From an uncultured Clostridia bacterium (GTDB lineage: Bacteria; Bacillota; Clostridia; Oscillospirales; Oscillospiraceae): a stretch of DNA of 32,525 bases. The notes beneath the pieces are model-generated. The model was not told the origin of the DNA. It ran no database searches and saw only the letters and a list, made by a program, of their open reading frames with translations. Position numbers and translations under genes: made by a program. Position 1 is the stretch's first letter. The number at the start of each line of letters is the position of its first letter. This document shows, piece by piece, positions 16,859 to 31,899 of this stretch. Location: contig CANAZG010000026.1 in NCBI GenBank assembly GCA_947365965.1, positions 1 through 32,525 on the forward strand. Direction: 5' to 3'.

Positions 16859-16927
16859 CCGTCTCCCAGAGAAAAACAGCCTCCCAGCCACCCCAGGAAG
16901 ACCGGTTCCCGGGCTGGCCATATAGCG

Positions 16928-17100
16928 GGTTCTGTCCTTTTGCCTGAGAGATTACGGGGATCGGCCGTTTGCACCTTCGGCACCCGCGCCAGCGGGCTTC
17001 TCCAGAATTTCGTCCGCCCGCAGTCCTGCCGTCTGGCACCTGGACGAGTTACGCCTTTGGTGGGAGCTCTTCCCCGGGGAATCCCTCCACTCTCCTGCGG
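16928..17100 (-). ncRNA. Tandem glycine riboswitch (gcvT type)
   Basis: Read on the minus strand. Aptamer 1 (about 17100-17015) starts GGAGAGTGGAGGG and holds CACCAAAGGCG and TCCAGGTGCCAGACGG. Aptamer 2 (about 17005-16930) starts TCTGGAGAAGCCC, carries the hallmark GCCGAAGGTGCAA and ends ATCTCTCAGGCAAAAGGACA. These are the conserved pieces of the glycine class. Two aptamers on one RNA bind glycine, with the expression platform at 16828-16870. In front of a transporter gene such switches may turn expression either on or off; the terminator suggests transcriptional control. This element explains most of the 512-bp gap 16795-17306. Confidence 0.92.
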
Positions 17101-24696: not shown

Positions 24697-25203
24697 ATGA
24701 CGGCATCCCAGCGGCGGGAGGCGATTCTGGCCGCGCTGGCCCAGGCGGAGGGCCCGGTAAGCGCCGGGGCCCTGGCCGGCCGGTTCGGCGTGAGCCGGCA
24801 GGTGATCGTGGGGGACGTGGCCCTGCTGCGGGCCGGCGGCGCGGCGGTGACCGCCACCGCCAGGGGCTACGTGGCGGAGCGGGAGCGGACGGGGACGGTG
24901 GGCCGGGTGGCCTGCCGCCACGGGGCCGTGGATATGGAGCGAGAGCTGCGGATCATGGTGGACAACGGCTGCACGGTGGTGGACGTGATCGTGGAGCACC
25001 CGGTCTACGGCCAGCTGACAGGGGCCCTGGGGCTCTCCAGCCGGTACGACGTGGACCAGTTCGTCCTCCGGGCCGGCGCGGCCCCGCCCCTGTCCCTGCT
25101 CACCGAGGGGATCCATCTCCACACCCTGGCCTGCCCGGACGAGGCCTGCTTCCGGCGGGTGCGGGAGGAGCTGGCCCGGGCGGGGTTTCTGCTGGCACTA
25201 TAA
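24697..25203 (+). CDS. niaR: NiaR-type transcriptional repressor (HTH plus 3H domain)
   Basis: 168 residues. Residues 1-55 form an HTH_11 winged helix (QRREAILAALAQAEGPVSAGALAGRFGVSRQVIVGDVALLR). Residues 70-165 form the 3H domain, named for three conserved His, visible in CRHGAV, VEHPVYGQLTG and GIHLHTLACP; in NiaR these bind metal and nicotinate as co-repressor. It should repress genes for niacin uptake or NAD synthesis; none is in the window, so its targets are elsewhere. Its stop overlaps the end of the convergent CorC gene by 6 bp. Confidence 0.9.
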   Translation: MTASQRREAILAALAQAEGPVSAGALAGRFGVSRQVIVGDVALLRAGGAAVTATARGYVAERERTGTVGRVACRHGAVDMERELRIMVDNGCTVVDVIVEHPVYGQLTGALGLSSRYDVDQFVLRAGAAPPLSLLTEGIHLHTLACPDEACFRRVREELARAGFLLAL

Positions 25204-26442
25204 ATCGCCGGCGGGGCTCGCGGCGATCTCCACCTCCGCCACCTTGTGGCAGTCCATGGAGATCACCGTAATCACCAGCTGCTCATAGCGGAAGCTGTCC
25301 CCCGGAACGGGCAGCTTTCCGATCTGTTCCATGACCCAGCCGCTGAGGGATATCATCTCGGAGTGGAGCTTGAGGCCAAAGAAGCCGCACACGTCGTCTA
25401 AATCCACGGAGCCGCTGACCCGGTAGGCGTGATCCCCGATCCTGCGGAACATCTCGGAAACCTCGTCGTGCTCGTCCCAGATCTCCCCCACCAGCTCCTC
25501 CAGAATGTCCTCCATGGTCACAATCCCGCAGGTTCCGCCGTACTCGTCCAGGACCACCGCCACATGGGTCTTGCCCTTCTGAAGCAGGCGCATGATGGCG
25601 CTGATTTTCTCGCTTTCCAGCACATAGACCACCGGCGCGACGATCTTTGCAATCTCCTGCTGGGTGATTCCGGAGCCGGTGTAGAAGTCCTTCAGGTGAA
25701 TCACGCCGACAATATTGTCGATGCTGTTTTCATAGATCAGAATCCGGGAGAATTTTGACTGGGAGAACAGCTGGGCCAGCTGCTCCTTGGACACATCCGC
25801 AGGCGCCGCCGCCAGATCCACCCGGTGGGTGAGAATATCGCCGGCCTCCTGCTCGGTAAACTCAATAGCGTTGCGCAGCAGCTCCCCCTCGTCCTTGTCA
25901 ATGCTGCCGTCCTGCTGAACCTCCTCAACCAGCATCAGCAGCTCCTCCTGGGACATCTTTCTGTCCGCCTCCGCCCGCAAAAGACGGGAGAGGAGCCGCT
26001 TCCAGGCGGAGAAGATCACGTTGAGCGGGGTGAGGATCCAGATCAGGACGCTCAGAAAGGGTGCGGAGAACATGGCAAAGCGCTCCGGGCAGTCCTTGGC
26101 AATGCTTTTGGGGGAGATCTCCCCAAAGATCAGCACCACCACGGTGACAACCACCGTGGAGACCGTCGGGCCAATATCCCCGCAGAGCTGGACAAACAGC
26201 ACCGTGCCCAGGGAGGCGGTGGCGATATTGACGATGTTGTTGCCGATCAGGATGGTTGAGATGAGTTTGTCGTACTGCTCCGAGAGCCTGCAGGCGAGGA
26301 CGGCCTTTCGGCTGCCCTTTTCCGCCAGGGTTTTCAGTCTCGTGCGGTTCAGGGAGGAAAAAGCGGTTTCCGTTGCGGAAAAATAGGCGGAAAACAGAAC
26401 CATAACCGCCATAATCACTGCGTATGTAAGGGTATTTGGCAT
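25198..26442 (-). CDS. CNNM/CorC-HlyC family transporter with CBS domains
   Basis: 414 residues from ATG 26442 (AAAGGAG 10 bp upstream). The DUF21 membrane domain (about 1-190, four hydrophobic helices, with [26 protein letters not shown] and [19 protein letters not shown]) is followed by a CBS pair (about 205-330, ending in [32 protein letters not shown]) and a C-terminal CorC_HlyC domain. DUF21 proteins of this type (B. subtilis MpfA/YhdP relatives, animal CNNM) export Mg2+ or other divalent cations and bind Mg-ATP at the CBS pair. The 5' leader (26443-26650) is unusual: see the leader gene and the terminator in it. Confidence 0.92.
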
Positions 26443-26508
26443 GAAAAAATAACTCCTTTGTCCTTGTTCATGTTGTGTTGGCCGCTTCAGGGATGGGCCC
26501 CGAAACGC

Positions 26509-26551
26509 AAAAAAAGCATGTCCGCCCCGCTTTCTAGCAGCGCAGATATGC
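26509..26551 (-). terminator. Leader terminator (attenuator) upstream of the CorC gene
   Basis: On the minus strand, a 16-bp stem with two mismatches (5' arm 26551-26536 starting GCATATCTGCGCTGCT, 3' arm ending GGACATGC at 26516) is followed by seven T (26515-26509). It lies between the promoter (26656-26684) and the coding start (26442), so it can only be a conditional terminator. AGCAGC (about 26604-26599) can pair with GCTGCT in its 5' arm and may act as part of an antiterminator. Confidence 0.75.
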
Positions 26552-26614
26552 CAAACACAAAGAACGGTATACAAAGTTGCTACAGTTTCCCTCGCAGCTG
26601 CTGTCACTGTCCAT
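26534..26614 (-). CDS. Putative leader peptide of the CorC-type transporter
   Basis: 26 codons on the minus strand, ATG at 26614, TAG at 26536-26534. The encoded peptide starts MDSDSSCEGNC and contains four Cys (positions 7, 11, 20, 26). GGGAGG lies upstream (12 bp from the ATG; a TTG start in frame at 26626 would be directly adjacent). The last codons and the stop fall in the 5' arm and loop of the terminator, so a ribosome reaching the end would prevent the hairpin from forming. Acidic N-termini such as MDSD destabilise translating ribosomes when Mg2+ is low in known Mg2+ leaders. That gives a possible sensor, but function is inferred. Confidence 0.5.
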   Translation of the reverse strand: MDSDSSCEGNCSNFVYRSLCLAYLRC

Positions 26615-26655
26615 TGAGCCGATCAACCTCCCTTCTGTAGGATAATGATACCCGT

Positions 26656-26684
26656 ATTATAGGCGACGGCGGCGATTCTGTCAA
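26656..26684 (-). promoter_or_regulatory. Consensus promoter of the CorC leader transcript
   Basis: On the minus strand, TTGACA (26679-26684), 17 bp, TATAAT (26656-26661). Start near 26649, giving an untranslated leader of about 207 nt. Control is therefore probably exerted in the leader, not at initiation. The rest of the 396-bp gap (26685-26838) shows only GC-rich sequence and the hairpin below. Confidence 0.85.
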
Positions 26685-26790
26685 TACGGAAATCCGGCGG
26701 GACGCCGTCCCTGGCCCGGCGGGGTTTGCCGGATCTTGCCGAGGTTCGGCGGCTTGACGATATCGCCGCCCGGGCGGATCGGAACAGGAA

Positions 26791-31483: not shown

Positions 31484-31512
31484 TTGACATTTTCCCCATC
31501 GGATGGTATGCT
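31484..31512 (+). promoter_or_regulatory. Promoter of the cold-shock gene
   Basis: TTGACA (31484-31489), 17 bp, TATGCT (31507-31512). The transcript would have a 5' leader of about 108 nt, in which CGCCGCC and GCGGGGC (31567-31584) can form a stem followed by TTCTTTTT. Long leaders are usual for csp genes. Confidence 0.75.
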
Positions 31513-31627
31513 ATCCATGTGTTCGGAACTGTACAAATTGGTCACTGCTAGTGGACGGGCACCCTACGCCGCCTTCTTGCGGGGCTTCTTTTTGCACTGG
31601 TTTAATTATTTACTAGGAGGCTTCCCA

Positions 31628-31840
31628 ATGATTTCTGGAACTGTGAAATGGTTTAACGCGGAGAAGGGCTACGGCTTTATCTCCAACGACGATGGCAGCG
31701 GCGATGTTTTCGTCCACTTCTCCGCCATTCAGGGCACGGGCTACCGCACCCTCAGCGAGGGGCAGAAGGTTACCTACACCGTTGAGCCTGATCCCAAGAA
31801 CAGCAGCAAGATGCGCGCGGTGGATGTCACTGCCGTCTGA
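31628..31840 (+). CDS. csp: Cold-shock protein (CspA family)
   Basis: 70 residues, single OB-fold. RNP1 [10 protein letters not shown] (about 14-23) and RNP2 DVFVHFSAI (about 27-35) are intact; starts [15 protein letters not shown], as in CspB/CspA. Binds single-stranded RNA and DNA as a chaperone. AGGAGG (31615-31620) lies 7 bp before the ATG. Ended by a terminator at 31865-31899. Confidence 0.96.
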
Positions 31841-31855
31841 TTGCTCCTTTCACAG

Positions 31856-31899
31856 AAAAAAAGCCGGGCTGTCCTATCTCAGGACAGCCCGATTTTTTT
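31856..31899. terminator. Bidirectional terminator between csp and the DtxR-type gene
   Basis: 11-bp perfect arms CGGGCTGTCCT (31865-31875) and AGGACAGCCCG (31881-31891), flanked by AAAAAAA (31856-31862) and TTTTTTT (31893-31899). T runs on both strands suit the two convergent genes. Confidence 0.9.

Follow-up and report, generated by a model that had tools for sequence, protein, structure and literature searches.

To our knowledge, sensing of Mg2+ by acidic nascent chains that destabilise the ribosome is known from only a few enterobacterial genes. Other divalent-cation genes are preceded by the M-box, yybP-ykoY and NiCo riboswitches, which are located in 5' leaders, often with terminators. 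In the pyrBI system, the variable is pausing of RNA polymerase on UTP. For the leader peptide MgtL of enterobacterial mgtA, PMC11282234 describes that low Mg2+ favours ribosome drop-off, that acidic residues matter in E. coli when they are among the first 30, at a stage when the chain has yet to fill the tunnel, and that completed translation keeps a Rho-dependent terminator accessible, the importer being on at low Mg2+. Staphylococcus aureus requires MpfA, a CNNM relative, for Mg2+ export and for growth when Mg2+ is high, and internal Mg2+ rises in its absence, the authors leaving open whether it is itself a Mg2+ transporter or a regulator (PMC6711546). PMC12421838 reports that Salmonella corC and mgpA are expressed more strongly when Mg2+ is high, and cites a sequence for intrinsic ribosome destabilisation (IRD) at the N-terminus of CorC (YbeX).

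Here, we analyse a locus in a stretch of 32,525 nucleotides from an uncultured Clostridia bacterium, referred to below as the window. We regard it as probable that this locus is a ribosome-mediated transcription attenuator, in which an acidic leader peptide and Mg2+-dependent ribosome drop-off would control a terminator located before an exporter gene.

Results

Organisation of the locus

The locus is read from the minus strand and comprises the following features.

26656..26684, minus strand: sigma-A promoter, TTGACA-17-TATAAT, with 12/12 consensus matches
26627..26632, minus strand: Shine-Dalgarno sequence GGGAGG of the leader ORF, read from the sequence
26534..26614, minus strand: leader peptide ORF, 26 codons plus stop, with the acidic N-terminus MDSDSS, an acidity that recurs in orthologues
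26559..26564, minus strand: TTCTTT in a T-rich stretch adjoining the hairpin on its 5' side, tentatively an RNA polymerase pause element
26515..26552, minus strand: intrinsic terminator hairpin, into which the end of the leader ORF extends, -21.7 kcal/mol, with a stem that covaries in 39 orthologous leaders
26509..26515, minus strand: T tract of the terminator, 7 T, read from the sequence
25198..26442, minus strand: gene for a CNNM/CorC-type membrane transporter, presumed to be the regulated gene (Pfam PF01595, PF00571 and PF03471)

The original prediction had described a perfect sigma-A promoter, a 26-codon MDSDSS frame with four Cys, and a stem with seven T followed by the transporter start. 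The promoter, with its 12 matches, was indeed found at that place on the minus strand; the coordinates of the frame (26614-26534) were right; and the hairpin (26552-26515), the T7 tract (26515-26509) and the ATG of the CNNM gene (26442, 66 nt downstream from the T tract) follow one another as described. The final codons and the TAG stop codon of the leader ORF are contained in the 5' arm and loop of the hairpin, again as originally noted. The leader peptide reads MDSDSSCEGNCSNFVYRSLCLAYLRC before the stop. A presumed untranslated stretch of about 35 nt precedes the ORF, and the spacing of 12 nt between the Shine-Dalgarno sequence and the ATG is rather long. Folding of the leader gave a z-score of -2.74. 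The assignment of the downstream gene to the CNNM/CorC type was borne out by its 414-residue product, which contains the CNNM transmembrane domain, the CBS pair and the CorC_HlyC domain. NCBIfam models match this protein only under their cut-offs, and its solved relatives include 7m1t and CNNM4.

Searching Rfam with positions 26400-26720 of the window gave no match up to an E-value of 10, and searching 33 related loci returned only tRNA, RNase P and, elsewhere in L032, a fluoride riboswitch. The leader thus matches no known riboswitch in Rfam, in keeping with the original prediction. Elsewhere in the window, Rfam reports the cspA thermoregulator, a family from enterobacteria, at 31498-31895 on the plus strand (85.2 bits for a cut-off of 78) and a single glycine riboswitch aptamer at 16922-17015 on the minus strand.

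The acidic N-terminus recurs before CNNM genes

A direct search with the window peptide matched 29 of 300 family genomes at E≤1, the window's own included; at E<0.001, only two matches besides the window were obtained, both upstream from CNNM genes. Since the query was too short, this approach was replaced by gene-first and covariance-model searches. The gene-first sample comprised 80 CNNM loci (L031-L110), the best 80 of 582 confirmed orthologues, which are 51-79% identical over the best segment and mostly derive from metagenome assemblies. An ORF was counted if it began with ATG or GTG 90-300 nt upstream from the gene (gene starts being guessed by script), followed a Shine-Dalgarno-like motif, spanned at least 12 codons and encoded at least three Asp/Glu among residues 2-9. 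Such an ORF was present in 41/80 loci, as compared with a mean of 0.87 in dinucleotide shuffles (maximum 4 in 30 runs) and none in the reverse complement of the same loci. Raising the threshold to four acidic residues left 20/80 loci against 0.03 in shuffles. Inspection by eye, which admitted weaker Shine-Dalgarno sequences and the MDEPP and MDS[CSP] types, identified a leader in about 60 of the 80 loci (63 candidate rows, 7 discarded and 4 added) and none of this kind in about 20. The window ORF is not a chance ORF.

The nearest relatives found, L002 and L003/L031, encode CNNM proteins 77-79% identical to that of the window. Their leaders, MDSDGDCINPAYRLLCLAYLRC and MDSDGDGISFAYRLLCLAYLRC, are four codons shorter, and the frame is kept; the leader frame is therefore intact in close relatives. 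These leaders contain three and two Cys, respectively, versus four in the window. Cys residues thus vary freely even among the nearest relatives, and the thiol or metal role that the original prediction had offered for them was not supported; sensing through Cys was rejected.

Among 118 leaders, a set chosen partly for acidity, Asp and Glu account for 39% of residues 2-10 versus 6% of residues 11-20. The alignment of 39 leaders used below (A1) was picked with an acidity score, so that its acidity is in part a product of this choice; unbiased counts come from the fixed rule as applied to the gene-first samples (CNNM-1, CNNM-2, MgtE and P-type ATPases). The acidic versions found before CNNM genes are of the Asp-Ser, Asp-Asp and Asp/Glu-Pro types (MDSDSSD, MDDSD, MDEPP, MDDSPLPEP), with MDEPP in six CNNM-1 loci. 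Recurrence of these different versions before the same genes indicates that charge and Pro, rather than particular codons, are kept. A fixed C-terminal arrest motif was also considered and rejected: LCLAYLRC followed by the stop codon occurs in 1/80 loci (L031), plus L002/L133. The leader of L120 also ends in AYLRC and a stop; since AYLR is merely what the conserved stem encodes in one of its frames, it is no general arrest motif. In one locus (L201, G607:C11), the CNNM protein itself starts with MDSDSSTKII. The transporter looks here as though it had taken over the destabilising stretch, which recalls the IRD sequence cited for E. coli CorC (PMC12421838).

Coding selection was assessed in two sets. 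In 53 curated leaders, picked for starting with MD, pN/pS over codons 2-8 was 0.45 in frame, and the two other frames gave 0.93 and 0.85. The Asp2 codon of these leaders is GAC in 40 and GAT in 13, and Ser3 codons are AGY in 29 and TCN in 4 of the curated leaders. A less biased test relied on similar leaders of the same length, taken as 15 independent pairs, and used all codons 5' of the hairpin. It gave 44 synonymous changes in 154 sites, 77 nonsynonymous changes in 668 sites, and a pN/pS of 0.40 (Fisher p = 5e-7, approximate because change counts are partly fractional). The synonymous changes expected of a coding frame, as in GAC/GAT and AGY/TCN usage, are thus found. These substitution patterns indicate that the leader peptide is under purifying selection, and the ORF is presumably translated.

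Genes located behind the leaders

Covariance model R1 was built from A1, which contains CNNM-1 leaders only, so that some of the CNNM-1 matches are training members; the E-values are rough. Of 300 family genomes, 67 were matched at E≤0.01, in 74 rows. All 57 full-length or nearly full-length sites were fetched, and 17 partial, mostly terminator-only rows were left out. Leaders were identified at 50 of the 57 sites; six were not leaders (L155, L156, L159, L160, L167 and L169) and one was doubtful. In the latter (L165, G211:C32), an acidic frame before a CNNM-1 gene reads ATA GAT CAC AGC GAC, with ATA at the start position, and is either a decaying leader or a rare start. The 50 leaders precede CNNM-1 genes (17), genes of the CNNM-2 subfamily (29), whose products are 25-32% identical to the window protein, P-type ATPases (3, the truncated L148 included) and a YtvI/AI-2E-type gene (1); the partial gene of L134 was assigned to CNNM-2 by its start. 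Residues 2-9 include three or four Asp/Glu in 45 leaders and two in five. Of the 50 leaders, 49 precede genes for probable cation exporters.

When R1 was applied to 391 genomes of the class, 31 were matched at E≤0.001, and 29 loci were examined besides the window (G556 being left out). Leaders were found before 16 CNNM-1 genes, one CNNM-2 gene and three P-type ATPases, and once at a contig end; they belong to ten families besides the window's. The remaining loci were L201, in which the match falls in the N-terminus of the CNNM protein, and seven sites that are not leaders (L196, L198, L200 and L202-L205). The nearest PDB entry to L176, a complete P-type ATPase, is the Listeria Ca2+-ATPase lmo0841, the NCBIfam Ca2+-ATPase models scoring under their cut-offs. 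The PaeA polyamine-exporter model was the best match, under its cut-off, for the two CNNM-2 proteins that were scanned.

Model R2, built from the CNNM-2 and ATPase leaders, matched 77/300 genomes at E≤0.003. Among the near-full unseen sites, 27 of 29 were examined (the plus-strand row of G003:C35, G032:C14 and partial rows being left out). New leaders were found before 11 CNNM-2 genes, a number that counts a duplicated copy and also three near-identical species; three sites were located before Na+/Pi cotransporter-PhoU genes, one weak site before an MgtE gene, and 12 sites were not leaders (L323-L325, L327, L328, L331 and L333-L338). The ORFs before the Na+/Pi cotransporter-PhoU genes (L320, L321 and L322) begin with MDDASFRRPP, MLDDAEQRD and MADASFWRP and, if they are leaders, would link phosphate with cation control. 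The weak match before the MgtE Mg2+ importer (L332, G166:C78) has a hardly acidic ORF, MDAGSSRGTTEG; it may have arisen by chance, or else the device is used here in the opposite sense. Both the Na+/Pi and the MgtE cases are few, with less acidic leaders, and are taken as leads only.

Several arrangements were noted in the course of these surveys. In G237:C14 (28442-28869), two acidic leaders lie back to back, L142 and L164, one located before a CNNM-2 gene and the other before a gene for a YtvI/AI-2E-family membrane protein. In G211:C144, a single contig contains identical leaders with the same CNNM-2 gene start (L315 and L316), oppositely oriented and separated by about 28 kb, reflecting either a duplication or an assembly artefact. 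In G135:C37, a leader (L148) directly precedes a P-type ATPase frame whose first part is missing from the assembly.

Gene-first control samples comprised the 30 best-matching class loci per search, with starts allowed to 60 nt from the gene (90 under the CNNM-1 rule). For CNNM-2, 10/30 loci passed the rule against 0.33 in shuffles, and 20/30 failed; one of the ten (L211) resembles the end of the upstream gene. Further CNNM-2 ORFs recognised by eye begin with MEDSTDGDNP, MEDLPYTEQ, MDDSPSPRS, MDDSSGPEPGPG and MDDIPEDIR. The Asp/Glu-Pro leaders of the CNNM-2 or control set, MDDSPLPEP and MEDSSVSDIEPPS, and the MDEPP type resemble the EPDP motif of MgtL. No acidic ORF was detected by the rule at 30 loci of the MgtE importer (0/30; shuffles 0.43) or at 29 P-type ATPase loci (0/29; shuffles 0.27), L254 having been dropped for its short upstream sequence. 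No leader was found in 28 loci of P-type ATPases 45-63% identical to L176; L236, which is 77% identical, has the leader MDDGDRSN, which fails the Shine-Dalgarno rule. P-type ATPases were thus rejected as a general target, and only the subgroup nearest to L176 has the leader.

Conservation of the terminator and position of the stop codon

RNAalifold analysis of A1 (39 aligned leaders) yielded a single consensus structure, the terminator stem of 12 pairs. In this stem, 92.7% of cells are paired (85.0% in shuffles) and 37 are doubly changed (13.4 in shuffles). Nine of the 12 pairs display changes on both sides, a number reached by 15/500 shuffles, and the covariation score was reached by 0/500. 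Compensatory changes, to which the original prediction had pointed as a check of the stem, are therefore present. A competing antiterminator of the trp type was rejected, as RNAalifold returned the terminator stem only, with the proviso that the 5' part of A1 aligns poorly and that a weak alternative fold could be missed. The stem is unusually conserved in sequence (A1 columns 114-157, GCATAYCTGCG...). In many leaders GCG or GTG comes after the T tract, even though loci differ in the frame in which the tract is read.

A promoter with at least 9/12 matches is found within 90 nt upstream in 103/117 leaders. In these 103 leaders, the -10 box ends 29-59 nt, mostly 34-42 nt, before the leader start codon, leaving little room for an aptamer. 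Together with the negative Rfam searches, this spacing argued against a metal riboswitch, which was set aside.

The geometry of the leaders was examined in 118 non-redundant sequences (79 CNNM-1, 32 CNNM-2 and 7 P-type ATPase leaders, one of the latter, L195, assigned by its leader alone since the contig ends). A hairpin was detected in 112 of them. The distance from the start codon to the hairpin has a median of 60 nt (IQR 57-65, range 42-99). Of the stop codons, 47 fall inside the hairpin and 40 after it; another 22 precede it by 1-12 nt, and three are more distant. A stop codon thus lies in, after or at most 12 nt before the hairpin in 109/112 leaders, and a ribosome finishing the peptide would nearly always sit on the terminator. 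Conversely, given the distance between start codon and hairpin, a ribosome lost in the acidic stretch would not reach the terminator. The proposal that completed translation opens the terminator is consistent with this geometry, which leaves the direction of control to be inferred. According to PMC4824070, termination at a Rho-independent terminator of E. coli is nearly abolished when a stop codon is only a few nucleotides away and is unaffected when the distance exceeds about 27-30 nt; terminators placed within the initial 100 bp of a coding sequence can nevertheless be efficient.

Over 60-100 nt, RNA polymerase would probably be ahead of the first ribosome, so that the device would need a polymerase pause. 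In Bacillus subtilis, transcription is thought to outrun translation, and TTNTTT is a motif at which NusG pauses the polymerase. This motif is present 4-25 nt before the hairpin in 12/51 leaders, including that of the window (26564-26559), for 3.8 expected (maximum 9 in 300 runs). The hairpin is preceded by a T-rich tract, which also encodes hydrophobic residues. Contact with a T-rich non-template region is described in PMC6851288. The motif and the tract are at most suggestive of a polymerase pause element.

Discussion

According to the mechanism that we propose, RNA polymerase would start near position 26649, producing a short leader mRNA on which a ribosome would initiate at the acidic ORF. 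At low Mg2+, and perhaps low polyamine, the Asp-rich stretch of the first ten or so residues would cause the ribosome to drop off, as in MgtL. The RNA before and through the hairpin would then be free, the terminator would fold and the exporter would be off. At high Mg2+, the ribosome would survive, reach the 5' arm of the terminator and the stop codon, and mask the hairpin, allowing transcription of the CNNM exporter gene. Polyamines might substitute for Mg2+ as the signal. The proposed direction suits exporters, since MpfA is needed at high Mg2+ and since corC and mgpA rise under the same condition. We lean, by a narrow measure, towards an extension of this mechanism to a regulon of the Clostridia, in which the ribosome would act as a gauge of Mg2+ or divalent cations and more than 100 acidic leaders would switch on CNNM-1 and CNNM-2 Mg2+ exporters and LMCA1-like Ca2+-ATPases, possibly also Na+/Pi cotransporters and a YtvI-like gene.

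The same attenuator could report general translation capacity (initiation, ribosome supply, or an antibiotic or ABC-F state), the acidic codons setting the threshold. The signal cannot be read from the anatomy alone, the ABC-F factor EttA modulates MgtL via acidic residues (PMC11282234), and three Na+/Pi-cotransporter genes also have leader-like elements; since a sensor of this kind would not be expected to place 49 of 50 leaders before genes for probable Mg2+/Ca2+ exporters, we hold this explanation to be unlikely. The purifying selection acting on the residues would also suit an acidic mini-protein with a function of its own, such as a regulator of the exporter that binds metal, with a terminator that merely trims expression. 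Against this quite improbable reading, the C-termini, which track the terminator stem, differ in length and frame as well as in sequence, and conservation mostly concerns the composition of the first ten or so residues. A classical amino-acid attenuator that senses the charging of Asp or Ser (or Cys) tRNAs would explain why Asp and Ser codons crowd the leader start, but in MD-type leaders, from the third residue on, different loci replace Asp by Glu, Ser, Cys, Pro or Gly, the targets are ion transporter rather than biosynthesis genes, and RNAalifold found the terminator stem only in A1, which makes this alternative highly improbable.

Genes for divalent-cation transporters are typical riboswitch targets, and a metal-sensing riboswitch upstream from the terminator would turn the ORF into an incidental feature. 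This is scarcely credible given the little room left by the -10 box (29-59 nt from the start codon in 103/117 leaders), the lack of any Rfam riboswitch at the leaders searched, the terminator stem being the only conserved structure, and the coding selection on the ORF. As for a chance ORF over an ordinary terminator or a small-RNA gene, terminator-only matches of the model do exist (17/74 R1 rows), but acidic ORFs at 41/80 CNNM loci for 0.87 expected and leaders at 50/57 near-full R1 sites leave this possibility next to no weight.

If ribosome-mediated attenuation by acidic leaders is correct, a Clostridia-wide version would supply a control for the excess-cation genes of the CNNM/CorC family in Gram-positive bacteria and would point to ribosome destabilisation as a principle of regulation in wide use. 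The Asp-Ser, Asp-Asp and Asp/Glu-Pro leaders would also offer about 100 natural variants from which to learn which nascent chains destabilise ribosomes.

Among the matches listed in a search of open-access PubMed Central, a scope that excludes subscription papers and preprints, no description of acidic leader peptides was found, whether for CNNM genes, for Ca2+-ATPase genes or for Clostridia. With MgtL, which controls enterobacterial mgtA through its EPDP motif, the leaders share a short ORF before a divalent-cation transporter gene, acidic residues at the extreme N-terminus, sometimes as Asp/Glu-Pro, and, here as a proposal, a downstream transcription decided by the fate of the ribosome. The difference is that completed translation would here mask an intrinsic terminator, before exporters, so that the output would be inverted with respect to MgtL. 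The overlap of a leader ORF with an intrinsic terminator, whose hairpin would be blocked by a ribosome close behind the polymerase, recalls pyrBI and pyrE; here, however, the variable would be ribosome survival, and a pause site is only suggested. The M-box, yybP-ykoY and NiCo riboswitches differ from the window leader, which has no Rfam match and in which only the terminator structure is conserved. E. coli YoaL, the leader suspected for mgpA, is non-acidic and overlaps yoaE. The corC IRD and yoaL-mgpA systems resemble the present one by CorC-family excess-cation genes, induction at high Mg2+ and a proposed control by the nascent chain (PMC12421838). The IRD of corC is located within the CorC protein itself, in contrast to the leader position observed here, although the CNNM protein of L201 starts with MDSDSS. 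IRD leaders and ribosome-masked terminators are thus known kinds of control, whereas their combination, the export-side logic and the breadth of distribution appear to be new. If true, the proposed regulon would mirror MgtL in Gram-positive bacteria, on the export side, with the logic inverted and with masking of a terminator as its output.
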